Source of the DNA: Daucus carota subsp. sativus
Taxonomy: Eukaryota; Streptophyta; Magnoliopsida; Apiales; Apiaceae
Direction of reading: 5' to 3'
DNA length: 64,000 nt
Assembly (NCBI RefSeq): GCF_001625215.2
Contig: NC_030387.2
Location: forward strand, 32,945,606-33,009,605
Part shown: piece after piece, positions 7,372-53,211 of the stretch
Layout of the letters: each line of letters begins with the position of its first letter
Position numbering within the stretch: the first letter of the stretch is position 1
Notes under the pieces: model-generated
The model's database searches: none
Told to the model about the DNA's origin: nothing
The model's input: the letters and a program-made list of their open reading frames with translations, nothing else
Program-made: the position numbers and the translations under genes

Positions 7372-7398
7372 TTATAGACTTAGATTTTAAAAATAATA

Positions 7399-7647
7399 CT
7401 CCCTCCATTTCAAATTACATGCCCACTTTGAAAGAAAAATTTTGTTTCAAATTAGTTGTCCACTTCAACTTTCAATGCAAATTCATATTTCCAAAGTCAA
7501 TTCTACTCCACATACTCCTTATTTATATTCCTACATCAACCTCATTCCACGTATTTTCATCATCTAATGCAATAGATTTGTGAACATTCACTTTTCTTAA
7601 ATTGTGTGATTTTTTTAAAGTGGACATGTAATTTGAAACGGAGGGAG
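7399..7647. mobile_element. Stowaway-type MITE
   Basis: The left end CTCCCTCCATTTCAAATTAC is mirrored at the right end by GTAATTTGAAACGGAGGGAG. TA dinucleotides flank both ends (7397-7398 and 7648-7649). About 249 bp, non-coding. It sits 27 bp from the 5' end of the minus-strand Helitron. Confidence 0.85.
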
Positions 7648-13588: not shown

Positions 13589-13822
13589 AAACTTTCTCTT
13601 GGATTCGTGTTAAGGGATCTTGTAAACATGCTTTGTTATCTGAAAACTATTCCGCAATTCTCAAAAAATGAAGGTATAGTCTCGCCTTCTGCTAATGCAT
13701 GGCTGCATGTTTTCATTAGAAGTGTGAATAAAATGGAAGTTCCAAGCCCAAAATACGTCTCCATATTGATTTCACTGCTAATGGTTTCTGCCTTTCTGCT
13801 TTATAAAGCAGAGAGGCTACTA

Positions 13823-14080
13823 CTCCCTCCGTCCCAAATTAACTGTCCAGTTTGACTTTTTGATGGTCAATTTGACCCAACTTTGACTGAAAATTAAAAA
13901 TTATTCTTTTACAATTTTACAAAACTGAAAAATATATTCTAAAATAGATTTGATAATCTTTTCAATGATATATATTTCATAATTTTATTCAATTATTTAA
14001 TATACATATTTTTCAGTCAAAGTTGGATCAAATTGACTATCAAAAAGTCAAACTGGACAGTTAATTTGGGACGGAGGGAG
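13823..14080. mobile_element. Stowaway-type MITE with long inverted repeats
   Basis: About 75 bases at each end form a near-perfect inverted repeat, starting CTCCCTCCGTCCCAAATTAA and ending with its complement. TA flanks both ends (13821-13822 and 14081-14082). The AT-rich centre has no coding capacity. The RNA would fold into a long hairpin, and the element lies about 300 bp downstream of CRR7's stop codon. Confidence 0.92.
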
Positions 14081-14384
14081 TATATTTTACTAAAAGTTTT
14101 TATGAGTGGAAATATTAATAATTGTATAAGAGAATAAGGAATCTGAGACACCCCTCGGACAACTTTTCTCAGATAACCAATGAACTGACTGTGTTTTGAT
14201 AAATGATAGGGACAATATTTTGATATTCACAATCTTTTAAGATATCAGAAGTTATCTCGGACGATCAATGAAATGACTGAGTATAAATGACTATGAAGTG
14301 ATTTTATTCACTATCTGAAGCAAGTTATTTGAAATTCCTTGTTCTCATTCTATAATTAAGGCAAACAAAAACTGATTCTTGAAA

Positions 14385-21946: not shown

Positions 21947-22835
21947 GGGAAAATAGATTTTTTCGTCACCCAACTTATTGTATATTTAGAAACTTGCCAC
22001 TGAACTATAAAACTTTTTCTTTTTTGTCACTAGTGTTAGGTTAGGATTTTTTTATCACTAAATTTAGGTTCAGATTTGATTATTAACACTATGTTATTCT
22101 TTTTAGCATTATTAAAATATAGTGGTAGTCTGCAATATTATGATTATCTGATATGTGTTTATATCTTTATATGTAGTCCTCCACATGTGTCCTACGTAGT
22201 TTACGTTGGAGGATGAGAGTTTGACACACACTTTACGGTTCCTAAAAGATTTAGTTTCATAAATTATTTTAATTTTTTTTCTGAATAAAAATTTAACACT
22301 TGAATTTTTGCACACAAAAAGAAAATCTCAAATTTAAGTTATGGAACTATGTTTTATAAGAAGTGAGACCTTAAAATACATGCCAATTAATAATTACATA
22401 AATGAGTGGTAAAATCGAGAAAAATTATAATTAGAATTCTAAAAATTCATTAAACTATCAATCTGAAATCAATAACTTCAAATAATTTATCATTTACAAT
22501 CAATTCTCAAGCAAAATTAAGTTAAGTGATACTGTATTTTTATGGAGTCGTAATATAATTTATAAAGCTAAATTTTTCAGGAGTCTTAAAATGCGTGTCA
22601 AACTCCCTTCGTCCAACGTAAACTACCCAGGAGACATATATATAGAAAACTATATATAATTGACATATAGCGTATCATCATAATATTACAAACTATTACT
22701 ATGTTTTAATAATGCTAACGTTAGTGACAAAAAAAATCCGAACCTGACATTAGTGACAAAAAGAAAAAAAATTATAGTTCAATGGTAAGTTTCTAAATAC
22801 ATAATAAGTTGAGTGGCGAAAAAATCTATTTTCCC
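21947..22835. mobile_element. Long-TIR foldback element, probably Mutator-like
   Basis: The ends form an inverted repeat of some 350-400 bp with moderate divergence. The left starts GGGAAAATAGATTTTTTCG and the right ends CTATTTTCCC. Inside the arms, TTTACGTTGGA and TTTGACACAC-type segments also mirror each other. A possible 9-bp duplication (TGAAAAAC core) lies near 21937-21944 and 22839-22847, two or three bases outside these ends. Long TIRs and a 9-bp duplication suit Mutator-like elements. There is no transposase. Confidence 0.72.
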
Positions 22836-24631
22836 ATTTGAAAAACCTAAAAGTTTATATATTTTGCGATTCCATAATCATACATTTTCGGGTGATAAGT
22901 TGCATAGTGTATTAAGAGTTAATTTCATATAAGAGAATAAGTCAACATTTCCTACAAATAATATAAATTGAGCAGATAAAAACCTCTTTTAATCAAAATT
23001 TAGAAAAACATTATCATTATCCACGTATTCTTTTTATATAAACTTGTCTGTCAAATATGCCCTCTCTATTTTAAAATATAGGTTATTTGAGTTTTTTTAA
23101 CACTGGTTCGTTTAGTTAAAATTATTATTTTCTACTTTTTAAAATAAAATATCATGATTAATAATATGATCGATTTTTTTCAAAAAATAATAAGCTTTAC
23201 TAGACAATCAAAATATTTTAAAGTATGTGTTAAAAAATAAATGAACTATCATGGAGCAGCAGTTAATTATTATGATTATGATACTTAACATATTCGAAGA
23301 AGTCGATAGTCTTCAAAACATTCTTATATTCAGTGTCGTAAAAAAGCGAAAATCAGAGTTAATTAGTTTAGCCACGGAATTAGAATGAATCAAAAATTTA
23401 TTGAATTAATTAAAAATTAATCAGGTTAATCAAAAATTAATCAAGAGTTTTATCAATTCAAAAATTAATTACCATTTTCGGAACACAACCATGCTATTCC
23501 AAAATGATATTATCCAGCCGAGCTTTCTCATTTCAAAGTACACAGGCATCAAAGATACAATGCCATGCCAGGGCCTTTTAAAGGGTATTGTCATCTTATA
23601 AAAACTAAATTGATATTTCTACTTTTATTTATTTTAGTGAAAGACTGAACAAAAAAGTTATATTTACTTATTTGTTATTTATTTCCCATTTCAAAGATAA
23701 TGATAGAGGTTTAGAATATTAGAAGTAAAACAAAAGAACTTGACTAAAATTATGCATAGTTCTGGCAACTGTGGAATACAAACCTCATTTGTGGCCTATG
23801 TAATTTTTCAAGTCACTTTCTGAGAGTGACTCTTTAGATATATAAATATAAATCAAATTCTTTCGAAAGAAGCACACTATGTAATATTTTTACATATTAA
23901 TATTCATAGAAATGGAAGATGCGTTTTTTTTTTTCCGTCTTTGGAATTAGTAGTGTGGAAAAATGTGACCAATTTTTAGGATTTGAATGTCTTTTTCAAA
24001 TATTAAATAAACAAACACATATTAAAATCAATAACAAAATATTAGAAAATTTTAAAATTATCCCAAAATCTTATTATATGTCGTGTATGTATAATTAAAA
24101 AAATTTCTAATTATATGACGGATACATTCATAATATATTAGCACAAAATTCAAATATAAAATTTTCGGGATAAATTTGTGAAAATATTTATGGATTTCCT
24201 GACTCATTGTAGCATAAAAATATAATACGGAGCAATAAATAATACTATTATCAAAATCAAAATGGAGAATATTCAAATTCTGATTTTTTTCCATATTTCA
24301 TAATTAATTCATATTTTTAAGTTGAAGGAAGGAAAAAAAATAGAATATGGTTGTAGAAAACTAGAAGAGAGAGAGAAGAAAACGAAATGCAAGAAACAAA
24401 GAACAAGAACGCGTTTTCACAAAGAACAATCACTGTTGAGTCTTCATAGTCTCTCTCCTCACAAAACTCTCTCTCTCTCTCTACCCATCTTTACAATCAC
24501 CACAAAAATTAGGGCTTGGGTTTGGGGGTTTTGAGCAAACCAAGCTCTATAAGACTGATTCAAACACTCAAAAAACTTGCAAAGATTCAATCTTTTTTTA
24601 AATTTTCTTGGACCCTTTAAGGGTTTCAATA

Positions 24632-27600
24632 ATGGGTCGTTACAAATGTTACAGTTCTCACAAGCCCTTCAAGTTCTTGATTTTCTTTTGGGTTTTTGCC
24701 TCTGTTTATGGGTCGGACCTTTTTGGACCCGATTCGGATAAATCGGCTTTGTTGGAGATGAAAGCCTCTGTTTCTGACCCTACTGGAATGCTCTCCAGCT
24801 GGAAATCTACAAGTGCTAATCACTGTTCTTGGTATGGTGTCAGCTGTGATGCAAATTCCAGGGTTTTGGCTCTCAATGTTAGTGGCGGTGGAGGTAATTC
24901 TGGTTCTTTTTCTTGTGCTAAATATGCTCATTTTTCTATATATGGTTTTGGAATTAGAAGGGTTTGTAGCGGTAGTGGTGTTGTGTTAAGTGGTAAGATT
25001 TCACCTGCTGTTGCTAAGTTGAGCGAGCTTAAGGTTTTGTCATTGCCTTTTAATGGGTTAAGTGGTGAAATTCCTGTGGAAATTTGGGGGATGGAGAAGC
25101 TTGAAGTTCTTGATCTCGAGGGGAATTCTGTTGGCGGTTTGTTGCCTAGCGAGTTTAAAGGGTTGAGGAATTTAAGGGTTCTTAATTTGGCGTTTAATGA
25201 GATTGGAGGGGGAATTCCAAGTTCTTTGTCGGATTGTGGGGGCTTACAAGTGTTGAATTTGGCAGGGAATCAGATGAATGGGACAATTCCGGTGTTTTTG
25301 GGGAAATTTGGGGATTTAAGGGGGGTTTATTTGTCCTTTAATGGACTTAATGGGAAGATTCCTCAAGAGATTGGGGATAATTGTCGTAAGCTTGAGCATT
25401 TGGAGCTTGCGGGTAATTATCTTGTCGGAGGAATACCTAGCAGTTTAGGTAATTGTAGCATGCTGCAGTCACTTTTGTTATATTCGAATATTCTAGAAGA
25501 GGTAATTCCTATGGAACTTGGACAGCTAAATAAGCTTCAAGTATTGGATGTTTCAAGGAACAGTTTGAGTGGAATGATACCCTCTGAACTTGGTAAGTGT
25601 TCAGAGTTATCGATTGTAGTATTTTCAAACTGGTGGGATCCTCTTAGTGGCGGTGTCGAGTCAGATTCTGATCTTTTGTCGACTTCTGGTCATGAAGAAT
25701 TTAACTTTTTTCAAGGCACGATTCCGACAGAAATCATTACTCTTCCAAAGCTCAGGGTATTATGGGCACCAAGGGCCACTTTGGAAGGAAAACTTCCGAC
25801 TAATTGGGGTAATTGCGACAGCCTGGAAATGGTGAATTTGGCTGAAAATTATTTCATGGGAGAAATTCCCATGGGTCTATCCAGATGCAAGAGCTTGTAC
25901 TTTCTTGATTTGAGTTCAAATAGGCTGACAGGGGGCCTTGTCGAGAGTCTTCAAGTTCCTTGTATGACCCTGTTTGATGTCAGCAGTAATTTTCTGTCTG
26001 GTTCTATGCCCTTGTTTAATTCTAGTGCTTGTCCTCTTGTTCCTTCATTAAGCCATAAGCCTTTTGAACCCTACACCCCTTCAAGCGCATACGTGTCATT
26101 TTTCGATTATGGAGCTCGGAATGCAACTTCATTGCCATTATTTGGAGATGTTGGTAATCTTGCAATCATGCACAACTTCGGTGGCAACAACTTTACTGGG
26201 GGATTCTCTTCGGTACCAATTTCACAAGAGAGATTAGGTTCACATACTGTTTATGCATTTCTTGCTGGCCAAAACAAGATGAGTGGACCATTTCCTGGTG
26301 GATTATTTGGGAAGTGTGATATGCTAAAGGGTTTTATTGTTAATGTCAGTGGAAATGGATTATCTGGTCAACTACCGCTAGGAATTGGTGCAATGTGCAG
26401 GTCTCTCATACATTTGGATACATCTAGAAATCAGATTGCTGGAGCAATACCTAGTTTTGGAGGTTTGGTTTCTCTTGTTGCTCTTAATTTGAGCTGGAAT
26501 CATTTCCAAGGTGCTATTCCTGCCAGTCTTGGTCAGATAAGTAACCTCAAATCTATTTCTTTAGCCAGCAATAACCTTACTGGCTCAGTACCTCCGAGCT
26601 TATGGCAGCTGCAGTCTTTAGAAGTGCTAGATGTTTCTTCAAACTCTCTCTCTGGGGAGATTCCAGACAGTGTTGTGCATTTGACCAACCTCACCACTCT
26701 GCTGCTGAACAACAATAAATTCTCTGGTCAGCTCCCTACTGGTTTGGCAAATGTGGCCAGACTTTCAGTGTTCAACGTGTCCTTCAATAACCTCTCTGGG
26801 CCAGTCCCCGTAAATAGTAAGGTAATTAAATGTAATGATCTCCTTGGGAACCCATTCTTGCAGCCCTGCCGAGTGTACTCTTTATCAGGATCATCTTCAG
26901 ATCAACAAGGAGGGGATTCGCAAAATTATGCTGCTTCCCCATCTGTGAGTGAAAGCAGCAAAAAGAGTGGCAATAATGGTTTTAACTCGATCGAGATTGC
27001 ATCCATAACATCTGCATCAGCCATTGTGTCAGTTCTGCTTGCTCTCATTGTCCTGTTCTTTTACACCCGAAAGTGGCATCCGAAGTCCAGGGTGGGCGGG
27101 TCTGTCAGAAAGGAAGTTACTGTATTTACTGATATAGGGGTTCCTTTGTCATTTGAGAATGTAGTGCGGGCCACAGGAAGTTTTAATGCTAGTAATTGCA
27201 TCGGGAATGGAGGCTTTGGAGCAACCTACAAGGCTGAAATTTCCCCAGGCGTCTTGGTGGCTATAAAACGGCTTTCAGTTGGACGGTTTCAAGGAGTACA
27301 ACAGTTTGACGCAGAAATCAAAACACTTGGCAGATTGCGCCATCCCAATCTTGTTACTCTAATTGGATATCATGCAAGTGAGACGGAGATGTTTCTTATA
27401 TATAATTACTTACCTGGCGGTAATTTGGAGAAATTTATTCAGGAAAGATCCACAAGAGCGGTAGATTGGAGGATACTTCACAAGATTGCTTTGGACATAG
27501 CACGTGCGCTAGCATATCTGCATGATCAATGCGTGCCACGTGTTCTTCATCGTGATGTCAAGCCTAGTAATATATTGTTGGACGATGACTTCAATGCTTA

Positions 27601-28024
27601 TTTGTCTGACTTTGGATTAGCTAGACTCCTTGGAACATCAGAAACCCATGCTACTACTGGCGTTGCTGGAACTTTCGGATATGTTGCTCCCGAGTATGCA
27701 ATGACTTGTCGTGTGTCTGACAAGGCTGATGTCTATAGTTATGGGGTCGTGCTCCTTGAGTTAATTTCAGACAAAAAAGCGTTAGATCCCTCATTTTCTT
27801 CATATGGCAACGGTTTCAATATTGTTGCTTGGGCATGTATGCTTTTGCGGCAAGGGCGAGCCAAAGAATTCTTCACAGCAGGATTATGGGATGCAGGTCC
27901 ACATGATGATCTGGTTGAAGTGTTACACCTAGCAGTGGTATGCACTGTTGAAACTCTATCCACAAGGCCAACTATGAAGCAAGTTGTTCGGCGGCTGAAG
28001 CAACTACAACCGGCATCATGTTAG
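24632..28024 (+). CDS. RPK2: Leucine-rich-repeat receptor-like kinase RPK2 (TOAD2)
   Basis: One uninterrupted exon of 1130 residues starting at the ATG at 24632; the open frame extends slightly upstream but only from a TTG. The order is: signal peptide (about 1-28, hydrophobic [13 protein letters not shown]); LRRNT cap ([20 protein letters not shown]); about 20 leucine-rich repeats with an irregular island mid-way; a transmembrane helix near 790-812 ([14 protein letters not shown]); and a kinase domain from about 847. Visible kinase motifs are GNGGFG, VAIKR (about 876-880), HRDVKPSN (about 973), DFGLA (about 993) and the [20 protein letters not shown] region, so catalytic residues are intact. 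Length and the very conserved kinase tail ([15 protein letters not shown]) identify RPK2. Known role: plasma-membrane receptor in anther development, embryo patterning and CLE-peptide signalling in the shoot meristem. Confidence 0.97.
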
Positions 28025-28979
28025 CAGGATAGGAGCAACCAGGTGATGACATAGTGATTAGTAGGATCTAAGCACAGCCAGCAACTGTATGTTTTATATA
28101 TTAATATAATCAGCTGATGGGCATATGTGAAGCAATTGTGTAGGCTTTTTATTAATTTATTTTTTTGGTTAAATGAATGTTTGAAATGTTGAAATAATTA
28201 TGTAGAGTTTTATTGTTTTATAATATCAAATTTAACTTGATCTACAGTTATAGATGGTCAGCATAAATTTTGCTTGTCCTTTCTTAATTTTTTAGTGCTT
28301 CGATAGTTTTGTCGGGTGATTAGCTTGGATTAGTCCTGATTATTTCTTGGCTTGATTCGCTTCCAAATCAGTGCTACTAGTTTTTGTGCGTGTCGGGCAT
28401 CTCACTGAAGCGGAATCAATCTGATCTGGCTTCAAATTACACTACCGATTAGAAGAGGAAACAGTTGGTGATTCTCTGTTTTTGGTATAATCTGATTACT
28501 TGGTAATATTACATACCTTATTATTATAGATCAATTTGTCTTGGTTTCGGTTCGATACGTGAAACATCAAACAGATCAGGAATCCAGCAAATTCAGTTCT
28601 GTTATGTGGTTATAGTTTCAAAATTTTACAATTTCTGATATGATGCTGTTGTAGTTTTTGTTGTTTGTGCTTACAGTTTTAAATTTCTGACTATTTAATG
28701 TTCCCTCTATTCCGGTCGTATAACTTTAGAGCTAAGTTCTTACCGGTTATTTGGATGGTCTCAGTAATTCATTTATGTTGGAGAAGCCCAATCAAGCTTA
28801 TATGCTCCACATTGGTATGTGTTGGCAATATTGCTGTTCCATGGTTGAGGATATTGTTTGATTCTCAGAAGCTGGCTGCTTTAAGCAGTATGAGTGAGGA
28901 CCAACTATTCAGAATAGTAATATTCTTTTGAAGGAAACACACCTAAACAAAGTTACACTAATTGCTAAGAACATCATCA
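28025..28979. other. RPK2 3' region and intergenic DNA
   Basis: T-rich sequence up to about 28230 is probably the RPK2 3' UTR. The remainder has no exon I can support. A short inverted pair, TTGATTCGCTTCC (about 28354) and GAAGCGGAATCAA (about 28408), could pair, but matches no microRNA I know. Confidence 0.45.
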
Positions 28980-29255
28980 AATAACAAGGATGTGGAGCTA
29001 TCCCCTTTGTTCATTGTGAATGGCATGAATCACTTTTAATTCATCACACTCCAGAATCAAGTTTCTCTCGGCAATTTCACTCTGCTGCACCAGCCTCTGC
29101 CATATCAGGAACCCATTATACTTCAAGTCTCTTCACTGCAGCCACCGAAAGCCATATCAGGTACCCATTCTCACCCCTTATAACAGCTCCAAAGCTAACA
29201 CGGCTTCCTGGAGTGATATGTGCATCCACGTACACAATTTGGAGGTGGGGATGAG
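28980..29255 (-). pseudogene. Relic of an RNase H-like (retroelement type) domain
   Basis: On the minus strand, from about 29255 down, a frame reads PPPNCVYVDAHITPGS then RVSFGAVIRGENGYLIWLSV, ending at a TAA. The overlapping frame then reads AERNLILECDELKVIHAIHN before a stop. The spaced VDA, FGAVIRGENG and ECD patterns are those of the RNase H domain in plant non-LTR retroelements and related ribonuclease-H-like proteins (first and third catalytic Asp visible). A frameshift and stop codons make it non-functional. It lies about 1 kb downstream of RPK2. Confidence 0.6.
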
Positions 29256-30486
29256 CACCCAGCAGCAGAAGGTTCGTAATAATTTAAGATAGGAGGAACA
29301 GATTATATAGTGCGATGGAACATAGCTACATGATCCAGATTGGATCTTGTAAATACCATCTGAAGAAGGCCACTGTAATCTTTAACACAAGGCCATGAAT
29401 AAGAGAGTGAAAAAAAACGAAATAAGACCAACAGAGCGTAGTAGCGTACCATACAAAATTTGTACAGTTTTCCTTTAAGAATACGGTAATGGAAAAGGTT
29501 GTATTTCTGGCTAAATATCATGACAAAGTATAGAAATGGTCGAAACATATAGTATGCCGTGAACTAAACATTTTAGATTAATATTAAAGGAGTACTTGTG
29601 AAGAAATCTTCGATCTCTCGGCCTTGTATTATGGCATATGTACTAACCTTCCTCACCAGGTATTGATATATTATCCACCACAGTTTCGATAAATTTATCT
29701 TTGTTTTTCATCAGTTGAACACCCAATGTTTTGCAGCAAATCCTCGGCCAGCGTATGTGTTCCTGTAGACATGGATGGAAGATAAATGTCTCCAGAAGTC
29801 CAGATAGAAGAATGCACCACAACTGAACCGGAGTTTGATTTTTTCAACGGATAGTGGTTTGTAGTTCATAGTTAGTCAACTGTATTAAACAAATCTACTT
29901 CCTCTCTTCCTTTTTACAAATATATTTCTATCTACACTCAATTAACTTATTCGGCAGATTCTACTGAATCACAATTCATAATATAATATAAGGGTGCTGG
30001 TCCCAGAGATGATGCATCAAACATTCAGGATTATAACAAAATTCTGTCACATCCTGATAATCGCAGAAAGGAAGAAGTCCGATCCGCGGAAAATTATAGG
30101 GGATGACAAAAAAAAAACGCTTGAATCTGCACCCTTGAAATTCAGATTTAACGATTTTGAAGCTGTGTGTTGGTTAAGAGTTATATGACATAGGGGGCTG
30201 TGGAACAAAACCCATAAAACATAGCCAAAGTAAGATTTAAGAACAACATATCATACTAGCTATCAAACAGAATTATAGATGTAAAGTGAAGTTCCTGCAA
30301 ATTAATATATTTTCTGCAGAATTAATATCAAGCAGTAATAGTCACTGGTCATAACACAACACTGAACAATATCCCGAATTTAAAAACATTCCATACACTT
30401 GAGTCGATATAACTTATAAACTGATGCCCAAATACATGATAAAACATCTGTCTAAAGGAAGATTTAAAAACAACATATCATACGAG
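29256..30486. other. Left outer part of the palindrome, 3' of the minus-strand Ninja gene
   Basis: It contains two partial copies of the Ninja 3' end and UTR (near 30230-30290 and 30455-30505), the same tandem duplication that follows the other gene at 35391-35520 and 35628-35745. Part of it (about 29940-30220) has no clear partner in the right arm. No other gene is supported. Confidence 0.5.
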
Positions 30487-31674
30487 CTAAACAGAATTAT
30501 AGATGCTTCGCTTAACCATTTTGATGTCCCTTAAGGGATAGGCTACATCACCGCCACCTGCATGTTTGATGAACTCGGAGGGAGTCATTGAATCACCATG
30601 ACAGGCACAGATGATAATTACGTCATCTTCATCGTTGTACCTGGAGAGAAACCCTTCTATCTTTTGGCCATGTACAGTTGTAAACACACATGGCATGCCT
30701 GTATTATTGAACACTATCCCATTAAGTTTGCCTCTTGCTGCAGGTATGGCTTTCGGTGGTGTATTTCCTGCCACATTTCGGACACCATTTGAAGACCCGA
30801 TGTTTGCAGGATATCTCTGGCCTGGGTATTTGTTTGGTCATGTTACTCATGTAGATACAAATAAGAAAATCAATTACTAAAGAAAAGACTCAATCAAGTA
30901 TCAACCACCAAAGTATATATAGGCTGCATAACATATTTGAGTGTAATATCTTTAAATTTGCAGGTTTCTTCTAAATGAAACGCAAATGATGCTTTCAATG
31001 TCAATAGAACTGACAAATATCAAACATATATGTAAATATTGTAAGGTATACAGATTATTTTGAACAAACTAACCTCTCTATATGTTTTGGCAAATATTTA
31101 TAATAAATTTCTGCCGAATCTATCAGAACTTAATTCAGAGCACTAATCATTTTCATGAATTATACATATTAAAACAAAAATATGCAACATGCTGCCCACT
31201 TTATATTTCACTCACAAAATATCAAAATCACAAATGACATGTGTAATTGGATAAAATTGCCAAGAGAAAAGTATCGTTACCTTCCATGGTCTGACACTGA
31301 AAATAAGAGGAGTTACTACCCTGTGAATCAGGTGCCTGCTTCATCTTTAATTCACCTCCATTTTCATCAGAAATCGGCGAGCTCCATTGGTTCGGAGTGA
31401 TCAAGACCTCCGGATGAGTATTTGTTCTCTGATTTCTTTGTGGATCAACACCAAATTTCCCATTCAACGAAAGACTTAGACTTAGATCAATGTCTTCTTC
31501 TTCTTCTGTTTCTTTAACAACTTTCTCCTCATGTGGTCGCATACTTGAAACAAGAAAACACCAAAATGATGAAATTTTGATTAAAAATAATTGATATAAA
31601 AATGAGTATAACAAAAACAATAAAAGCTTAGCATACCTTGGTGGGGATACAAAGGAATTGAGTGAATAAACCAT
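30487..31674 (-). CDS. Ninja/AFP-family transcriptional co-repressor, short form (left copy)
   Basis: Three exons on the minus strand: 31637-31674, 31281-31543 and 30487-30821 (38, 263 and 335 nt, all GT/AG, in frame), giving 211 residues. An acidic run (ETEEEED) leads into an EAR motif, DLSLSLSLNGKFGVDP (about 32-47), which in this family recruits TOPLESS co-repressors. The last 69 residues are the family C domain: PCVFTTVHGQKIEGFLSRY, then IIICACHGDSMTPSEFIKHA and GGGDVAYPLRDI. In known members this domain binds JAZ proteins (NINJA, jasmonate signalling) or ABI5 (AFPs, abscisic acid signalling). Typical members have roughly 250-425 residues; this one lacks the middle domain. The start at 31674 is the ATG in the leader exon; an ATG at the start of exon 2 is an alternative. 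Confidence 0.88.
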
Positions 31675-33932
31675 AGTCAAGTAGAAGTAGTTCTTGTATT
31701 GGATCTGTGCACTCTGCTAGACAGGACTCTGCTATACTCCACGGATTTGCATGAACCTCAGTTTAAGGTGGACAGCAGAGCTTGTGTTTCGTCAGCATAC
31801 TAGGCACGTGTCGGTTTATAAATATTACAAGTGACTGTGACATGTGATACATAGTGAGTTGACAGATACGTTAAAATAAATACAGTTATCTTTAACACGT
31901 TCAACCCATATACGTTAATATAAATACAGTATAGAGTTTACGTTTTGAATATATATATTTCCAATACCGTAATTAATTTTGAGACAGATACTGTTAAAAG
32001 ATACAGTAAAGAAGTTTTAACTTATCTACCACCTACCCACCCAACAACGGCCTATAATTAATTAAATTTAGAAATTAATTAGATCTGAGACTTGTGCTTT
32101 AGAAAATATATACAAAAAGCACACGTTTTGAACTTATCTCCAACGAGGTCACAATTTATTTAAATTTACAACATTTACATGTCATTATTATATTATTTTA
32201 TTATTTGTTATAATATCTAATTATATTTATGCTCTTCTATATCTGTTTTCTTAAAAGAAATAGTTTTGTTTCTTTCAAAAAATAATTAATATTATATTTT
32301 AATTTTATTCTTAATAAAATATAAATACATTATTTAAAATAATTTGACCATCCATTGTGTTCTTGTAGAGAGAAAGTTGATTATACTAATATTTAGGATG
32401 ATAAATGAGATATTATTCTAAGTGCAACAACCTAAAAATGTAAATACTCAATTTCTTAAATTTTTGCAAAAATACTTAAAGAAATTAAAAATATACTTTA
32501 TTTTGAATTTGCAATAATCATAATCGATATGACCAAAATCAATCCAATTCAATCGTGAGAAACTAGAAATTTTTTCTCTAAAATATTCCTTTAATGGCAT
32601 ATTGTATTATTAATTGTTACATCTACAATCTTTTCATGAATATTTTTGAAATATAGTAATATTGTGAGATATCAAAAACATAAAAATTTTCTAATAAATT
32701 TATGTTGACATAATTACTAAATAATTTGTTATCTAACATCACTCTAGCTTGACATAAATATTTACAGAAGATTTAAAAATTAGACAAATAATCTAAAATT
32801 AATATATATTTCTAATAATTACACATAAATTCATTAGAACATTTATCAAAATACTATGTTTACTTCATTTTTCACAATTTTACTATATCTTAAAAGTATT
32901 TGTGAAAATACTGTAGATGCAACAAATTTTTTCCGAGAAAGTTTTTATTTTCTGACAATTGGATGGATGCTGATTTTTGTTATATTGACAACAATTGTTG
33001 TAACACAGTAAATTTGCAAAAACATTTAAAGTATAGTATATTTGCAATTTTTAAAAAAATTATATGTGATTTTGCAAGAACTTAAAAAATTGAGTATTTT
33101 TTTTTTAAAACCTCTGCTCCTTCGGGAGTCCAAGGGTGACCAAGAGGATACATATCTCTTTTTTAAAGAGCTGAACCAACACTGTATTTTTGCTCCTATG
33201 TTTTGAAGTATTTACTTGTAGGTTTTTGCACCTAGAATAATATCTCATTTATCATCATAAATATCAACATAATCAACTTTTTCTTTACAAGAACACAATG
33301 GAGGGTCAAATATTTTAAATAAAATATTGATGTTATTATAGGAATATAATTAAAATATAATACTAATTTAATTATTTTTCGGAAGAAACAAAACTATTTC
33401 TTTTAAGAAAATAGAGGCTTATAAATATTATTGTATATTATAATAAATAAAACAAATATAAAAAATATATGTGAATGTTGTAAACTGAAATAAGTTATGA
33501 CTTGATTTGGTATAAGTTGAAAATTAAATTTTTTCATATATAATTTTTTAAAGCACATATCTCAAATTTAATTAGTTATAGGCCGTTTAGTGAGTAGGTG
33601 GAAGATAAGTTCAAAACGTAAACTCTTTACTGTAACGTATCTGTCTCAAATTTAAGTAATTATGTCAGTCATATTAGAAATATATTCAAAACATAAATTC
33701 TGTATTTATATTAACGTATGTGGGTGGGTGTTGAATACTCACTAGGTATCAGGATTCACGGGTCAGGTGTCACTTGTAAAATTTATAAACCGACACGTGC
33801 CTAGTATGCTGACAAAACACAAGCTCTGCTGTCCACCTTAAACTGAAGTTCATGCAAATCCGCTGAGTATAGCAGAGTCCTGCTGTCTAGCAGAGTGCAC
33901 CGATCCAATATAAGAACTACTTCCACTTGACT
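31675..33932. promoter_or_regulatory. Divergent promoter region and palindrome centre between the two Ninja genes
   Basis: Both start codons face away from this 2.26-kb stretch. Mirror-image promoter blocks lie at about 31680-31860 and 33750-33930. Each carries a CACGTG-containing GGCACGTGTCGG, a G-box/ABRE-like core that suits jasmonate or abscisic acid control (inference). The inner 1.9 kb is extremely AT-rich and continues the inverted repeat nearly to the centre. About 85 bases near 33103-33190, in the right arm only, look like a later insertion. Confidence 0.6.
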
Positions 33933-35408
33933 ATGGTTTATCCAGTCAATTCCTTTGTATCTCCACCAAGGTATGCTTAGCTTTTTTAATTGTTTATGTT
34001 ATACTCATTTTTGTATCAACTATTTTTAATCAAAATTTCATCATTTTGGTGTTTCAAGTATGAGACCACATGAGGAGAAAGTTGTTAAAGAAAGAGAAGA
34101 AGAAGAAAACATTGATCTAAGTCTAAGTCTTTCGTTGAATGGGAAATTTGGTGTTGATCCACAAAGAAATCAGAGGACAAATTCTTGTCCGGAGGTCTTG
34201 ATCACTCCGAACCAAAGGAGCTCGCCGATTTCTGATGACAATGGAGGTGAATCAAAGATGAGGCAGCCACCTGATTCACAGGGTAGTAACTCTTCTTATT
34301 TTCAGTGTCAGACCATAAAAGGTGATGATACTATATATTCTTTTGGCAATTTTATCCAATTACACGTGTCCTTTGTGATGTGATATATATTTTTGTGAGT
34401 GAATTATGAAAAGGGCAGCATGTTGCGTATTTTTGTTCTAATATGTATAAATTATAATAGATGAAAATATTAGTGCTCTAAGTTAAGTTGTGATAGATTC
34501 TGCAGAAATTTATTATAAATTACTAAAACATATTGAGAGGCTAGTTTGTTCAAACCGATCCGTATACCTTACAATTTTTACAAATATGCTTGATATTTGT
34601 CAGTTCTATTGACATTGAAAGCATCGTTTGCGTTTCATTCAGAAGAAACCTGCAAATTTAAACTTGATAGAGGGAAGGAACCAGAAATTTGGGTTGGGGT
34701 GGGCTTGACAAGTGAATAACGAAGAAAAATCTATGTTCATTCATGCTAGGAACTGAAGAAAGTGAGAACTCCACCTTGTTAATCAGCATTCTCTATTCTA
34801 TTTTCTGAATCTACTTGATTATATTGATGCCGGACTTAGTTGATAGTGAGCTTGGGCTTACTTAACACATAAATTATATAATATATATAACTACTAAACT
34901 TTTTTTTAAAAAAAATTACCCTGGGCTTAAGCCCAGGTAAGTCCTTCTATACTTCCGTCTCTGGATATTACACTCAAATATATTATGCAGCCTATATATA
35001 CTTTGGTGGTTGATTGAGTCTTTTCTTTAGTAATTGATTTTCTTACAAGTAACATGACCAAACAAATACGCAGGCCAGGGATATCCTGCAAACATCAGGT
35101 CTTCAAATGGTGTCCGAAATGTGGCAGGAAATACACCACCGAAAGCCATACCTGCAGCAAGAGGCAAAGTTAACGGGATAGTGTTCAATAATACAGGCAT
35201 GCCATGTGTGTTTACAACTGTACATGGCCAAAAGATAGAAGGGTTTCTCTCCAGGTACAACGATGAAGATGACGTAATTATCATCTGTGCCTGTCATGGT
35301 GATTCAATGACTCCCTCCGAGTTCATCAAACATGCAGGTGGCGGTGATGTGGCCTATCCCTTAAGAGACATCAAGATGATTAAGCGAAGTATCTATAATT
35401 CTGTTTAG
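33933..35408 (+). CDS. Ninja/AFP-family transcriptional co-repressor, short form (right copy)
   Basis: Exons 33933-33970, 34059-34321 and 35074-35408 have the same lengths as in the left copy and again give 211 residues. The EAR motif (LSLSLSLNGKFGVDP) and the C domain (PCVFTTVHGQKIEGF, CACHGDSMTPSEF, HAGGGDVAYPL) are intact. I count about 17 amino-acid differences from the left copy. About 13 are in the first 100 residues and only one is in the last 69, which suggests selection on the C domain. Intron 2 is longer than in the left copy because of an insertion near 34665-34962. Its donor is GTGATG rather than GTAACG, a weaker match to consensus, so splicing may differ. Likely a nuclear co-repressor in hormone signalling by family membership. 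Confidence 0.87.
34665..34962. mobile_element. Insertion in intron 2 of the right Ninja copy, MITE-like
   Basis: Compared with the left arm, about 300 extra bases lie between CTGCAAATTTAAA and GATATTACACTCAAATAT. The insert begins AGAGGGAAGGAACCAGAAAT and ends TACTTCCGTCTCTG. Its ends resemble a widespread plant MITE type (CAGAGGCGGA..CCAGAAATTT). Because it is absent from the other arm, it arrived after the duplication. Exact borders and target duplication are uncertain. Confidence 0.6.
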
Positions 35409-36748
35409 CTCGTATTGATATGTTGTTTTTAAATCTTCCTTTGGACATATGTTTTATTATGTGTTTGGCCATCAGTTTATATTTCATATTGACTCAAGTG
35501 TATGGTATGTTACTATGTTGCTTAAATTCGGGACATTGTTCAGTGTTGTGTTATGACCAGTGACTATAACTGCTTGATATTAATTCTGCAGAAAATATAT
35601 AAAATTTGCAGGAACTTCATTTAACATCTATAATTCTGTTTAATAGCTCGTATGATATGTTGTTCTTAAATCTTCCTTTGGATATGTTTTATTATGAAGT
35701 ATTTGGCCATCAGTTTATATTTTATATTGACTCAAGTGTACGGTATGTATCAAGGCTTCTCTTTCCAGCTTGGTATTAGTAACAGTAGAAAAGTATATAA
35801 AATTTGCAGGAACTGCACTTTACATTTTAATTAGCAGCATACATGTTTATTTCATAAAGAAGTTTAGGACGTCTACATAAAAGTTCTGAAATTTTTATTG
35901 CAGAGTCTGACACTCGGACATGTATTTATGGTGGACACTTTTAGCCATGTTCGAGTAATATTATATATAATTTATTATGTTATTGCCGCTGGATAACAGA
36001 ATTTTTAAAGAAAAATTGCTTATGTTCGGCGCTTTTTTTAGCTGGACAACTGAAATCGGAGTTGCTGCAAACATTGGGTGTTCCTTTGATGAAAACAAAG
36101 GTAATTTTATCGAAACTGTGGTAGATAATATGTCAATTCCAGGAGAGGAAGGTTGATACATATGCCATAATACAAGGCCGAGAGATCGAAGATTCATCCA
36201 CAAGTACTACCATATAATTCCCTTTTTTTATTATCATTTCCAGCATGTTGCTGGCCTTCTAACATTGCGTTCACTTGGATGGATTTGAACGAAGAGAGAA
36301 CAGAATGAAAAATTATAAAGAAAGAAAAGAGTGACAAATTTGTGAGCGAATCTAAATTTTCTATGTTAAAGATTGCAGGGAAACATGATGTTAGAAGTGA
36401 AATGTGTATACGACTTTGATTAGATTTCTAGTTCAAATAGTAAAAAATTAAGTACACAGAAACATAAATCATCTGATGCTACAAACTGCAAACTCCTCAC
36501 AGTAAGGAAGTGAGCAAAAGTAAAAAAGAAATTCTCCCTTGGGCTCACTAGTCGCCTAAACTAACGGGCCTTCCTTCCGGTCCTAGTAAATACCCGTTAA
36601 TAACGGAGACGAGATGTCGATCTTGCATTTTGTTCGTTTATAACACAATTTTTGTGTATCAAACATTTTCTTTTATAAATTTTGTAAAAATTTGGGAGAA
36701 GATTAACGAACATTCAAACAAATCTCAGGTAATTCTGAGGCCATATAT
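35409..36748. other. Right outer part of the palindrome and promoter of the next gene
   Basis: It includes a tandem copy of the Ninja gene end and 3' UTR (35628-35745 repeats 35391-35520) and the outer palindrome edge near 36207. A MITE-end-like segment GCGTTCACTTGGATGGA (about 36264) resembles the element at 49298-49607 but has no partner. The last 150 bases are the leader of the gene starting at 36749. Confidence 0.5.
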
Positions 36749-37141
36749 ATGGCATCCACCATGAAATCAATGTTTAAAGCTCTAAGAAAATACATTCTTA
36801 AAACGCCATGGGAAATTACTGGACCATGCGCAAGCCCCGAATACAAAAATGCCATTCCTACTCTCAACGATGTTCGAGTTTTCTCACCTGCAACACCGCC
36901 TACAAAGGTCGTTGTCCCCACCTCCGATCCCCAAACTGTCTTTGACATTCAGTATTATTCCAGGGATCAGCGGCGCAACAGGCCGCCCATTCGTCGGACT
37001 GTCCTGAAGAAAGCTGATGCTGTCAAAATGATGAAAGAGAAAAAAAGTTTCGGTGTGGCTGATTTTCCTCCTGTTTATCTCACCAAAACGGTGGAAGAGG
37101 ATTATAGTGCTCGTGGTGGAGGTTATGTGCAAGAAAAATAA
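36749..37141 (+). CDS. Small conserved plant protein of unknown function, single exon
   Basis: 130 residues from the ATG at 36749. It has a basic N-terminus (MASTMKSMFKALRKYILKTP) that could be an organelle-targeting or amphipathic helix, then WEITGPCASPEYKNAIP, a central PATPPTKVVVPTSDP segment, and a strongly basic YYSRDQRRNRPPIRRTVLKK stretch. The end reads FPPVYLTKTVEEDYSARGGG. This pattern looks like a small conserved plant protein family that I remember only as uncharacterised; I do not assign a function. No membrane helix is seen. The composition (regular codon use, few rare runs) and the lack of a competing frame support a real gene. It lies 540 bp outside the palindrome. Confidence 0.78.
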   Translation: MASTMKSMFKALRKYILKTPWEITGPCASPEYKNAIPTLNDVRVFSPATPPTKVVVPTSDPQTVFDIQYYSRDQRRNRPPIRRTVLKKADAVKMMKEKKSFGVADFPPVYLTKTVEEDYSARGGGYVQEK

Positions 37142-38506: not shown

Positions 38507-38617
38507 TCCCTCCATTCTTGAAATATCTGCCTTTTGACTTTTCAGCACACATTTTAAGGTGCTTTGACCAATCAAAACACTTTAAGATGCTTGCCAAAAA
38601 GTCAAGAGACACATATA
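38507..38617. mobile_element. Truncated Stowaway-like MITE fragment
   Basis: CTCCCTCCATTCTTGAAAT after a TA is a Stowaway left end, but no matching right end is found. The sequence runs directly into the complete element starting at 38618. Confidence 0.55.
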
Positions 38618-38875
38618 CTCCCTCCGTCCCTTTTTACATGTCCATTTTGCTTTTCGAGAAGTCAAATTAACCAATTTTTGACTAAACATTACGAGTTATC
38701 TACCCAATATTTTTAAAATCTGAAAGTTGCGTATTAAAATAGACTCAATATACTTTCTAATGATATAATTTTTATTATTTTTGTCAATTATCTGATATAC
38801 GTAAAGTCCAGTCAAAATAAAGTCAATTTGACTGGTCAAAAGTCAAAATAGACATGTAAAAAGAGACGGAGGGAG
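38618..38875. mobile_element. Stowaway-type MITE
   Basis: It begins CTCCCTCCGTCCCTTTTTAC and ends with the complementary GTAAAAAGAGACGGAGGGAG. TA lies on both sides (38616-38617 and 38876-38877). At 258 bp it is the same size as the element at 13823-14080. Confidence 0.9.
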
Positions 38876-41584
38876 TAATGTTCTTCACCTACACTTAATT
38901 CCTGAGTCTGCCCCGGCTTCTATCTCACTAAACAGTGAATACATCTGTTAACACAAAAAGGAGTACGACGAACAACTCTGCAGTCTTTTGTTGGCTTTGG
39001 ATGATATTGTCCAAGAACATTTGTAATTTTCTACCTACCGGTCTCCTCTTTAGAGCACCCAATTTCAATATTTAGCTAAGTGCAAACATGTGAATGTATG
39101 TCAATATTATCATGTAAGTGAACAGTATTTTAAAATATGTTCTTTAATCAGTACGTTTTGCATGCGCATGTGCATGCAAGAAACAATACTAGTACTTCTG
39201 AATTCTTATGTCACTTGAATGAAGCTCATAAGAGTTTTGTTTGTGGTTGGTGTGTCAATTATGCAGCTATGAGAAGCTCAAGAGAGACAGACACTCAGAC
39301 AGAAGGTGGTTGAATAAGAGAACCGACTCCGGTACAGAAATTTAATTAGAAAATGCCAAAATGTCAGTAACTCTTATAAAAGCTTGTTATGTAATCTTAA
39401 AAGGTTCGGCATAGTATTTATTATCATTAATGATTTTTCAAGTTCAGTCGGGTCACGCAGCTCGAGAGATATAAAGAAGAGTCAAAAAGAAAGGAGGGCG
39501 AAGGAGTCATAAAAGTGAAGATGGATAGATAGATAGCAGTGAGCATCAGAAATAATGCAGCAGAGAAATGCAGAGAAAGTGAACAAGTGTATAACGGCCT
39601 TCCTGGCCTTTCCCTGCAATAAAAATTAAATGTTTTAAACAGACGTAACAGCTACAGCTTTTCCTCTACTCCTTTGTGTTTCTTTTCTTCTTCTACCCCA
39701 TGTCCCCATTCCATGTGACTCGCCCTTCACTTACCATAAAGCTGAGCATGCATGCGTGAGAGAGAAGATCCCAGTCACTTGTGAATTGTGATTCTAAATT
39801 TTTAATACTACTGTGTCAGCTGTAATTAAAGCATATAAAATTAATGCTAATTTTACTTAATCCTTATCAGATATACAGGATTTTGCTCTAAATCAGAATT
39901 GTTTTTATTTCTTCAATTTGATCGAATTGATTTAAAAACTTGTTGGCTATTCGCAGAGCTAGCTAGCTCATAGCTAAAATTCGACCAGAAATCAGTATGC
40001 GTTTATTTTCGCGTCTAATGTTAAAACTCAGGTGTTTCGTACTGTCTTTGTTTTAATATAAACATCCTTATGCTTCTGATTATTTGATGACCTATACTGT
40101 GATTTTATTTCAATATACAAGGCTCAAACAGGTATTTGAAAGAGAAATTAAACAACACACTGTCTTGCAGTACTGCTGCAGCATGCAATCAGAAGTGTAA
40201 CAGCACTGTGCTATAAATTAGCTTCATACAAACTACAAAGGCATGGTCCTTACATATAAAAAGTGAGTGGTACGTTGTACGTGATAATTAACTTATATAT
40301 AACAGATACTTTCTCCCAAGTTTCATACCTTTGATTAGACAGATTGCATATTTAAGCCAATCTCGAGTATGCGTACTTTGTATATATCCGAAGTAATTGA
40401 TTGCTATATACCTTACGCACACAAATTCTGGTAATCTGGTTTTGATTTATTTCAGTCGGAGGAATCCTAAGCCAAGATTTAGGAGAACCGTTCAAGCTCT
40501 CCAAAGATGAACGTCCGTGATCCACTAAAATAAATTTTCATGACCAATAACGTTTTTCAAACCGCATATAGGACACAAAATTAGCGTCAATAGTTATCCA
40601 TCACCGCCTCAAATAGTAAGCAATTCACATCGAAGATGCCATTTCAGATATTAAGGGATAGGCTTGGATGATTTGGAAATGTGGACATATTTAGTGGAGA
40701 TAGGAACTTGTTATTTATCACATTTTTAGATGGCGTGAAGCATAAGAATAAAAATAATGCAGGTCAGTAGCCGCTAAGGAGCATCTGTGGTAATTCCATT
40801 GTGGAATTTTGTATGTTGTTTTCAAAAGAGCGTGGCTTGACTTGGTCGGTTGTGGTGTTCGGCAGTGGCGTATGTAACATGTGCGAGTAGTCTGTATATA
40901 CATGTTGTAATGGCTAAGAGCCTCACTCAGACCGCGACAGCTGAGGGGCCATCCCGGGCCTGGGGCGGGCGACTTGATCGATTTTCTCTTCCTTCATTTT
41001 GGCTTTCTGAATCACCTATGTATGACAGCTGATTCCATTTTTTAATTGGTGTTTGGATCAAGTTTATATCCACTTCCAGTTGGAAACAGTATTTGGACTG
41101 GTTCATGGTTTTTTTTTCAAACCAACCTTTGTAATTGGTAGGACTGGCTTATAGTTACCGGTGAGTCGGTGACAGAGTAAATTATGAATTATAATCTATT
41201 TTTCTATATTTTAAAAAAATTAAATCATGCAATATCTACAAAAATAATCGATTGAGGCAAATATAAAATAGATTATATGGCCATTTTTTTTTACTTGAAT
41301 CATATGGCTAATTAGTTTGGTCTTTAAGAGACAATGAAGCAAATTATTGAAATTGATATATATACATTCAATTTTGCTTTACAAAAATTTATCATTTAGG
41401 TCAAATTTCTTAGGTCAAAATCTTGAAAATCCGTTAAATCTAACATCTTATTACATCAAACACACACACAAAATCATATAAACTCTCACAAAAAGAAGAG
41501 AATAAACAAAACTGAAATGAATCAGGAATAAACAGAATTCCTTATCTAAGGGAGTATTATTCAGAAAACAGAATTCCTTTCTTA

Positions 41585-47274: not shown

Positions 47275-49297
47275 AGACTTTAAGTTTTCTGATCTTACCT
47301 GATTTATACATATTGATTGTAGAGATTACACCCCTTTTTTGTTCTGCTGAATCAAGAACAGCAAGTTTAAGGGACATCAAAGATAAGATATATGAAGATT
47401 GACAGGTTCGATTTTTCGAGTTCATCAGAATTTTTAGCAACTATATGTAATAGTTGTTGCATGGGGATGATCTTGGTTTCTATTAATCTGGTGGCCATTG
47501 TATCGAAGAAAAATTAAGATGTAGCATATATACATCTGATTGATTGGCATAATTCTGAGGACAGGAACAGCTGGTAAGTTTATGCTTTGATTGCTGCTTG
47601 TAGCATTTTATGTTCTTACCTTGCTGGAGGACATTTGTATCTAGGCCAGGATTTATATGTGTGTATATTGGATGAAGTATGTCGTTGCTGGACTGATAAA
47701 TTTATTACACCTTATTAATGTAATTCTCCGCTCCATCCATCCCAAATTAACCTGGAATTGTTTGATTTTTGTTGATGATCAAATTTTGACTGATAATTAA
47801 AATTTGTTATGCACTATTTTGTTAAGCCACTGAAAATTGTATCTTCAAGTAAAATTGATACACTCTCCAGTGTTGTGTTTTCTTATAATTATTTCGACTA
47901 TATAATTTACGTAATTTGATGTTATAGATCAGTTGCTCCATAACAAATAATGAAATAAGACCGAAAAATTGATGCGAAGTTTGTGCTTTGTTTAAGTAAA
48001 AACTTAACAGGGTACGCATATATATGGTAGGATGAACTTTAAATTCTGAACACGTACACATGAACACTATAACATTAAAGTGAACCAATGTGTTAACAGA
48101 ACTAGAAACTGCTGGTAGATGTGGAGTTGAACGATTTGCATATATAGGGCAAGGAAAGCACATCTGCATATATAATAACGGAGCAAAGACATGCCTCATA
48201 AATACCCTACAACATTCTGAATGTGATAGCAGTTAAGCGTGGGGCTCGAATGCAAAGTAAAGCTAGTGGTGAACAGTAAATTTACAGATTCGTAGTCGCT
48301 GCAATAAATTGCGACGAACTCAATTGTACAAAACCGTCTGATTATTAAAAATGAAATGTAAAATTGACCTCGGCCACGTGATTGTCTGATCGAATAATAA
48401 AAATGAAATTTAAAACTGATTTAAGTCACACGATTGTCCGGTGTGACAAGATACTAGAAGACCGATTTTTAACTGATTGATAAAGAATATTAACGCTGAT
48501 TATTTAAGTGATTAGTTATTTAGATACGGCTTGTCAAAGATGGATCTAAAACGAATCACTTATGTACATTGATTTTCTATGATCGATCATTTTAACAAAT
48601 AACCTATCAACTTTAATTTATGATATATCGATCTATTAATTTAGTGCTAATTCTTTCTTTCTCCGGTTAGTTTGGTACATTGCAACTTCTTCACGTTTCA
48701 CTTATTTTGAATCACAATCAAAATGAAAAGAAGTGAGTGATGTATTGTAAACAAAAAAAAAATACCATGAGAGATATTTCAAGTTAAAAAATTTATGGTG
48801 CTTGAAAACTGCAAGTAATATGCATCTCACTGAGACATAAGCAGTCATTTTTAAAAGAAACAGACCAAATTAAATGGTACGCCTTCGAATTTAATCTGGC
48901 TAGTGACGGTGGCAGATGGCAATAGATGTCATTGGAATTTAGTCTGTGAATTTTCAGTTTTGTATCGAGGAGAAAGGATAACAAATTAAAAGGATTGAGG
49001 GATATATGTGGTCCCATTTTTTTTTATTTTTTTGCTACCCTGCCTCTGCAGGTTCTATATTATGTAAGAAATAACATAAATCCTAGTATTATAATCGGTC
49101 ATTTCACTTCAAATATACTTTCAGATTCGTAAGCGGCGAATGGAAAAATTTACAACCAAAACTTACTCGCCCTCCCCCTCAATTGTTTATATGGGGATAG
49201 GAGCTGAACGCATTCTAAATCTCTCATAAAATGTAATTTGATAAATTATTTTGATTTTTTTCCTTCTGAATAAATATTTACTATCTAAACTTTTAGA

Positions 49298-52095: not shown

Positions 52096-53211
52096 AAGGG
52101 TTAAAAATGGGGCGAGAAAATGGGGGTGAAATAATTTTCTGCCCCATCAAAATATGAGGCAAGTATGGTATTTGTTGAATCCCGGCGAGGATTCCTCGCC
52201 CCGTCCCGCATATATTTAATATAAATAAATAATTATATTTAATATAATATATTTATTATATTTAATATTATTATTTTATAATACACAAAATTATAATTTT
52301 ACAATGTATAACATGTTTCTTTGATTTCTATTATATTTAGTTTTTTGCTTTTAATATACATGTCTCGTATATTTTTATTAAATTCTGAAAAAAAAATTAC
52401 TAAATTTTAAAGTAATTATGTAAAGTGTAATATTATAGCGGCGGAGCGGGGCGAAATTATATTAAGTCCCCGGGTGGGGCGGGGATGGGGATTTAAAATA
52501 AATCCCCGCGGGGAATGGGACGGGACGTGTAGGGTTAAAAATGGGGTGGGGAAAATGGGGAACCCGCCCCAACCCGCCCCGAATGGGGCAGATCCGCCCC
52601 GCTAATATGGGGAATGGGGTAGTGACGAGGAATGATTTTCTGCCCCGCCAAAATATGGGGTAAGTATGGTATTTGTTGAATCACCGCGGGGATTACCCGC
52701 CCCGCCCCGCATATATTTAATATAAATAAATAATTATATTTAGTATAATATATTTATTATATTTAATATAATATATTTATTATATTTAATATTATTATTT
52801 TATAATACACATAACTATAAGTTTACAATGTATAATATGTCTTTTTGATTTCTATTATATTTAGTTTTTTACTTTTAATATACATCTCTTGTATATTTTT
52901 ATCAAATTATGAAGAAAAAATTACTAAATTTTAAAGTAATTATTTAAAGTGTAATGTTATAGCAGCGGGGTGGGGCGGGACGAAATTATATTAAATCTCC
53001 GATGGGACGGGGATGTGGATTAAAAATAAATCCCCGCGGGGAATGGGGCGGGGATGGGGCAGGAAAAAATATATGGGGCGGGGATGGGAAATGAAGTCCC
53101 CGCCCCGAACCCGCCTCATTTTTAACCCTAGGGACGGGGCAGGAAAAATATATACGGGGCGGGGCTGGGAAATAAAATCCCTGCTCCCAACCCGTCTCAT
53201 TTTTAACCCTA
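52096..53211. mobile_element. hAT-like MITE (outer copy) interrupted by a second copy
   Basis: It starts AAGGGTTAAAAATGGGG and ends CATTTTTAACCCTA. An exact 8-bp duplication CATTTTAC flanks it (52088-52095 and 53212-53219), as for hAT elements. The ends are GC-rich with repeated GGGGCGGGG. Without the inner element (52530-53130) and one 8-bp duplication the outer copy is about 507 bp. Confidence 0.87.
52530..53130. mobile_element. hAT-like MITE (inner copy) inserted in the outer one
   Basis: Perfect terminal repeats TAGGGTTAAAAATG and CATTTTTAACCCTA bound 601 bp. The 8-bp flanks GGGACGTG (52522-52529) and GGGACGGG (53131-53138) match at seven of eight positions. The interior aligns with the outer copy (TGGTATTTGTTGAATC, TAATATAAATAAATAATTAT) and has a small tandem expansion of a TATTTAATATAATATATTTA-like motif near 52736-52790. 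Confidence 0.87.

Follow-up and report, generated by a model that had tools for sequence, protein, structure and literature searches.

Among tandem duplicates in plants, parallel arrays are put at ~80% in Arabidopsis and ~88% in rice (PMC2547482, citing another paper), which makes inverted neighbours a minority yet not rare. Inverted duplications have been put forward in PMC3237417 as sources of plant MIRNA genes. The closest described counterpart of the locus reported here is the VIM4-VIM2 pair of Arabidopsis thaliana Cvi-0, in which two head-to-head paralogues form a palindrome of ~6.4 kb around a non-palindromic centre of 50 bp; as described in PMC13213937, the genes are 99.86% identical, their start codons lie ~96 bp apart, and small interfering RNAs (siRNAs) were shown. 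The same account presents Arabidopsis PAI4-PAI1 as an inverted gene duplication that lies tail to tail, is methylated and produces small RNAs. Here we describe a palindrome of 6.6 kb with a putative short AFP/NINJA-like gene in each arm, in a stretch of 64,000 nucleotides from Daucus carota subsp. sativus (RefSeq assembly GCF_001625215.2, contig NC_030387.2, positions 32,945,606 to 33,009,605 of the forward strand). The whole stretch is referred to as the window, and positions below are counted from its first letter.

The Daucus palindrome resembles VIM4-VIM2 in its head-to-head layout, its size and its tiny centre (~83 nt), and PAI4-PAI1 in being an inverted gene duplication in a plant. Unlike VIM4-VIM2, its copies are 92% identical in protein and 96% in coding sequence (CDS), its start codons are 2,258 bp apart, and it is known from sequence alone. 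Palindromes of willow sex chromosomes also have arms that are partly homogenised, seemingly by gene conversion, but those described in PMC7023750 have arms of ~14-73 kb, 96% to >99% identical, and were tested with a sister species, whereas here arms of ~3.1-3.4 kb come from a single genome. The encoded proteins recall the AFP (ABI5-binding protein) and NINJA adaptors described in PMC12857203 and PMC7584889, which combine an N-terminal EAR motif with a C-terminal TDBD or C domain; they differ in that no B domain was detected and in their length, 211 amino acids against 425 for the 8t2i chain. A literature search on inverted AFP/Ninja duplicates found no paper with at least four of its five terms, which does not prove absence in print. 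The less ordinary features of the locus are its tiny centre, its symmetric extent and a sharp step in divergence.

A palindrome with one gene in each arm

The palindrome is real. Repeat finding aligned the inverted pairs on a single axis, and in a BLAST comparison of the window with itself the coordinate sums of the matches fall at 65.5-65.9 kb, tandem-repeat cross matches aside. Its parts are as follows.

29591..32723, minus strand: left palindrome arm (self-comparison and shuffles)
32807..36208, plus strand: right palindrome arm (self-comparison and shuffles)
32724..32806, no strand: unaligned centre of ~83 nt; local alignment of the two halves stops at 32723 and 32807
29591..29739, minus strand: outer edge of the left arm, 89% like 36062-36208 on the right, beyond an unshared stretch
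34663..34963, plus strand: 301-nt insert in right intron 2, absent on the left (arm alignment)
35391..35832, plus strand: 3'-flank tandem repeat with a spacing of ~237 nt, partly common to the left arm at 30214-30505

A global alignment of the arms contains blocks in the outer edge, the 3' flank, all exons, the introns, the promoters and the inner intergenic DNA. Against 300 dinucleotide shuffles per comparison, the inverted alignment score was 344 for the inner arm (shuffle maximum 53), 153 for the distal promoter (33), 101 for the core (41) and 90 for the innermost core (41); in none of these did any of the 300 shuffles reach the observed score. Similarity limited to exons is rejected by the arm alignment and the shuffle controls together. 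Near the centre the similarity is weak, 60-80% depending on the aligner, and a weak BLAST alignment of 67% identity passes straight across it (32614-32925). Outside the arms, 28800-29588 and 36211-37000 show no similarity (47 of 300 shuffles reach the score). The same is true of an internal stretch, 29732-30214 against 35692-36068 (172 of 300), so ~0.47 kb of the left arm and 0.23-0.37 kb of the right are unshared near the outer ends; at the outer edge beyond, 16 of 142 positions mismatch.

The arms differ by ~200 substitutions and many insertions or deletions (indels). Mismatches number 182 among 1686 well-aligned non-coding positions and 27 among 636 coding ones, and the right arm has inserts of 301 nt in intron 2 and ~117 nt in the inner arm. 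No second copy of the 301-nt insert occurs in the window, and by eye no clear site duplication that would mark it as a miniature inverted-repeat transposable element (MITE) was seen. The tandem repeat begins near the stop codon in both arms, and the left arm partly shares it; as its copies are 91% alike within an arm and 93% between arms, it probably predates the palindrome, by a narrow margin.

Each arm encodes a gene of three exons, pointing outward.

31637..31674, minus strand: left exon 1, 38 nt (frame-keeping splice model)
31281..31543, minus strand: left exon 2, 263 nt, EAR motif (splice model and Pfam)
30487..30821, minus strand: left exon 3, 335 nt with the stop, TDBD (C) domain (splice model and Pfam)
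33933..33970, plus strand: right exon 1, 38 nt (match to left model)
34059..34321, plus strand: right exon 2, 263 nt, EAR motif (match to left model and Pfam)
35074..35408, plus strand: right exon 3, 335 nt with the stop, TDBD (C) domain (match to left model and Pfam)

For the left gene one frame-keeping splice combination was found, with donor sites scanned over a narrower range; for the right gene there were six, from which the one matching the left gene was chosen. The two are adjacent paralogues in opposite orientation with the same exon structure, and hence an inverted tandem gene duplicate. Both proteins have 211 residues, identical at 194 (91.9%) and different at 17, none of the differences falling in the EAR core (residues 32-47). 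The EAR motif (domain A, PF07897) and the TDBD (domain C, PF16135) score above the Pfam cut-offs in both proteins, the latter over profile positions 8-31 of 52 only. The best match of the C domain to a solved structure is 'AFP homolog 2', PDB 8t2i chain N (E-value 2.2e-7 left, 1e-6 right), which we take to be NINJA; the sole other structure listed, an antibody chain (0.24 and 0.65), is a chance match. A search with the left protein at E <=1 returned only the two palindrome genes from the window.

No Pfam match besides EAR and TDBD, and thus no domain B, appeared at E <=0.01 for the left protein or <=10 for the right, in searches whose HMMER filters drop weak matches. Remnants of a B domain within intron 2 were provisionally set aside on a listing of short frames, no profile search being aimed at them. 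Because the B domain went undetected, we call the predicted proteins short AFP/NINJA-like, presumably a short variant. AFPs are described in PMC12857203 as having A (EAR), B (nuclear localisation) and C domains, and removal of the B domain in a truncated AFP2 is described there as weakening the effect on germination under abscisic acid (ABA). Taken together, this result and the undetected B domain suggest that the function of the palindrome proteins may be altered.

A sequence-only reading made before this analysis had placed the palindrome at 29591..36207, with a head-to-head Ninja-type gene in each arm, exon lengths of 38, 263 and 335 nt in both genes and ~92% protein identity, and all of this holds, the right end now lying at 36208. 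Its term "near-spacerless" suits the palindrome but not the gene pair, given the 2,258 bp between start codons. Inverted similarity does run almost to the centre (32723/32807) and out to both edges (29591/36208), as had been claimed, though it is weak near the centre and is interrupted by the unshared internal stretch. That reading's view of a palindrome old enough to have diverged and taken up insertions agrees with the substitutions and inserts listed above, and the similarity extends beyond the exons into introns, promoters and 3' flanks.

Apparent retention of both copies

Both copies look like working genes. The 27 differences among the 636 CDS positions include no indel, whereas the genic non-coding DNA (introns, proximal promoter and 3' flank) has 17 indel events per 926 aligned positions, a rate at which 11.7 would be expected in the CDS (Poisson P 8.5e-6). 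Non-synonymous and synonymous divergence (dN/dS) are 0.016/0.070 in exon 3, 0.061/0.068 in exons 1 and 2 together, and 0.037/0.068 over the whole CDS. In exon 3, four of nine changes alter the protein (binomial P 0.029, with 78% non-synonymous sites assumed). The C domain and the reading frames appear to have been kept, while the N-terminal half seems to change freely. Against this stands the dN/dS ratio of exons 1 and 2, near 0.9, which leaves the N-terminal half little constrained apart from its reading frame. The counts also depend on the alignment, two aligners giving the same broad pattern and one supplying the indel count.

Uneven divergence between the arms

Divergence along the palindrome is a mosaic: the inner arms, like the 5' half of intron 2, reach 15-18%, whereas values of 3-8% prevail from the 3' half of that intron through exon 3 into the 3' flank. 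Two tracts mark the extremes.

31958..32480, minus strand: left inner arm of high divergence, 87 of 486 aligned columns differing (arm alignment)
30214..31024, minus strand: low-divergence tract (3' half of intron 2, exon 3, 3' flank), a candidate conversion tract with a provisional outer end and its partner at 34589-35692

In successive MAFFT alignment windows from the centre outward, mismatches per 100 columns are 40, 25, 24, 9, 15, 23, 19 and 17, then 8, 8 and 5 at the promoter, exon 1 and intron 1, and 3-10 around exon 2. Intron 2 itself is split, its 5' half giving 16 and 14 and its 3' half 5 and 3, after which exon 3 gives 2-3 and the 3' flank 6-9. When all non-coding columns are taken together, a single change point fits best at L31958/R33671 (left- and right-arm positions), separating 166/738 from 87/1041 mismatches, a step found in 0 of 500 permutations. 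Inside intron 2, at L31024/R34589, the 5' half has 37/254 mismatches and the 3' half 6/183, a step that 3 of 2000 permutations reach; from the inner arm to the proximal promoter the change is from 99/570 to 8/161 (2 of 2000). Divergence does not differ between the 5' half of intron 2 and the inner arm (34/230 vs 87/486, P 0.34). Within 31958-32480 there is a marginal patch of 20 columns at one end (59 of 2000 permutations).

Because a drop inside one intron is hard to explain by constraint, we favour a model in which the 3' half of the gene underwent gene conversion between the arms, a process by which the genic parts were probably homogenised later. Constraint is just as good a candidate for the promoter and exons 1-2. 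Several results weigh against conversion. Neither the 3' flank (562 of 2000 permutations) nor 31675-31957 taken by itself (431 of 2000) contains a supported divergence step. Synonymous divergence is the same in exon 3 (0.070) as in exons 1 and 2 (0.068), so that exon 3 is not singled out, and its perfect run of 176 nt departs only mildly from expectation (P 0.012). It would take an outgroup to separate a conversion tract from local constraint or differences in mutation rate.

Plant substitution rates are ~6e-9 to 1.5e-8 per site and year. At these rates a dS of 0.068 corresponds to about 2-6 million years and the divergence of the inner arm (87/486) to about 7-17 million years; if conversion is right, the larger age is nearer the true age of the palindrome.

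Origin of the palindrome

We consider it likely that the locus arose by an ordinary local inverted, head-to-head gene duplication, with both copies kept as proteins and the arms made uneven by conversion or constraint. One ancestral AFP/NINJA-like gene, with ~1.1 kb upstream and 0.8-0.9 kb downstream, would have been copied as a mirror image with hardly any spacer, and both copies, each under a promoter of its own, would have gone on coding for protein. Drift would then have taken the inner arms and the 5' half of intron 2 to ~15-18% divergence, while arm-to-arm conversion, or for the promoter and exons constraint, would have held the genic parts at 3-8%. The proteins would be expected to act as small EAR-type adaptors, in which the EAR motif would recruit TOPLESS-type co-repressors and the C domain would bind partners of the ABI5/ABF or JAZ type.

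The locus offers a clean natural case in plants: the palindrome has a tiny centre, has persisted for long enough to diverge, and changes sharply in divergence inside one intron. Comparison with a single related genome would test whether arm-to-arm conversion keeps plant palindromic genes alike, and whether a distance of ~1.1 kb from centre to gene escapes the hairpin silencing seen at VIM4-VIM2.

Alternative explanations

The palindrome might instead be a natural hairpin locus, in which transcripts crossing the centre form double-stranded RNA and DCL-made siRNAs damp the gene pair and its family. By sequence and predicted fold it is a long inverted repeat that spans genes and closes on a short loop. 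In the predicted fold of a plus-strand transcript of 30487-35408, 1907 of 2080 pairs link one arm to the other, and there are 25 perfect stretches of at least 21 nt (931 nt in total), the longest being the 176 nt in exon 3; such folding is expected of any palindrome. A receptor-kinase gene at 24608-28024 is directed at the left arm, and read-through from it would give RNA antisense to the left gene and sense to the right. In PMC13213937 the VIM4-VIM2 palindrome (~6.4 kb, 50-bp centre, head to head) is described as making siRNAs and silencing VIM1 in trans. There, however, the first exons and introns are given as 100% identical with start codons ~96 bp apart, and the small RNAs as specific to Cvi, with ~2.8 kb separating the start codons of the Col allele (PMC13213937). 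On account of that spacing and specificity we judge silencing at the Daucus palindrome possible but unlikely. Here 2,258 bp separate the start codons, the reading frames are free of indels, and the arms fall short of the near-perfect identity looked for in siRNA-producing repeats (genic non-coding DNA 93%, inner arm and core 82%, CDS 96%). Neither CpG depletion (observed/expected 0.60 and 0.56 in the arms, near the window's 0.64) nor an excess of transitions (51/91 in the inner arms vs 36/63 in genic non-coding DNA) was found; both are weak tests, and on them a methylation scar is rejected. It is rather improbable that this old, diverged palindrome is gene pair and silencing source at once, still yielding small RNAs that would tune the ABA/jasmonate co-repressor family while conversion keeps exon 3 matched enough for dicing (the 176-nt duplex).

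It is also quite doubtful that an older fold-back transposon, lying upstream of the gene, makes up the inner arms and that its hairpin seeded a younger inverted duplication, leaving an older centre. The inner arm and core are indeed more diverged than genic non-coding DNA (91/513 vs 63/926, P 4e-10), and the window holds other inverted-repeat elements. Against this, the inner arm is no more diverged than the 5' half of intron 2 (P 0.34), which removes the need for a greater age of the centre, and copies of the inner arm elsewhere in the window are limited to two 40-nt matches (E 5e-4). The entire 6.6 kb as a fold-back transposon was rejected: the arms end in AGTACTTGT/ACAAGTACT, no target-site duplication is visible by eye, and two spliced genes lie inside.

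A bidirectional promoter at the centre, co-regulating both genes, had been raised by the sequence-only reading as a shared divergent promoter. The head-to-head layout and the mirror-symmetric intergenic DNA would suit it; each gene, however, has its own copy of a proximal promoter.

31675..31835, minus strand: left proximal promoter, 95% like the right; CACGTG at 31805-31810 by CCGAC and TATAAA (alignment and motif scan)
33769..33932, plus strand: right proximal promoter; CACGTG at 33794-33799 by CCGAC and TATAAA (alignment and motif scan)

The two copies differ at 8 of 161 positions. TATAAA, CCGAC and CACGTG follow in this order at -149/-144/-139 from the ATG on the right and -146/-141/-136 on the left, in a scan without chance control. 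CCGAC and CACGTG are presumably the DRE and the ABRE/G-box, and a response of the promoters to ABA or stress is no more than suggested. The least diverged upstream DNA is this 160-bp proximal promoter, one per gene, while divergence peaks at the centre, where the three innermost windows have 24-40 mismatches per 100 columns, and duplicated promoters could by themselves yield co-expression. With start codons 2,258 bp (2.26 kb) apart, a single shared promoter does not stand up well and seems improbable; since the genes lie this far apart, we would expect each to give an independent mRNA under similar regulation.

Assembly artefacts typically take the shape of a palindrome with a small spacer, but a folded-back read or haplotype join is very unlikely here because the arms differ by ~200 substitutions and many indels (182/1686 non-coding and 27/636 coding mismatches, plus arm-specific inserts), where a fold-back would be nearly identical and a false mirror join of diverged haplotypes would require a break exactly on the axis of symmetry, which is very unlikely.

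Other features of the window

Pfam matches in the window include EXO70, an LRR receptor kinase, TCP and a TAF8-like protein, and the stretch looks like plant nuclear DNA. On the left flank of the palindrome, the minus strand of 28850-29300 resembles by eye a plant RNase H-like retroelement protein, unconfirmed and in a frame with stops. On the right, 0.54 kb past the arm, an open reading frame at 36749-37141 matches complex I subunit B14.5a below threshold (E 0.0056; 16.9 bits, the cut-off being 25).

Inverted pairs of at least 60 nt number 23 in the window, 9 of them outside the palindrome. A second large inverted repeat, at 5913-10950, has blocks 76-86% alike with ~2.2 kb between the innermost ones, internal tandem copies at 7030-7373 and GC-rich ends adjoining AACTAGTT; by eye it resembles a DNA transposon bounded by long inverted ends. 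A self-complementary MITE-like element of 262 nt at 13821-14082 has diverged relatives at 38611-38881 and 47731-47917 (71% and 68%). An inverted repeat at 21947-22835 has arms of ~0.3 kb, 71% alike over 329 columns. The direct repeat at 52130-53115 consists of copies ~0.5 kb apart, 82.5% identical over ~486 columns, with small hairpins inside.

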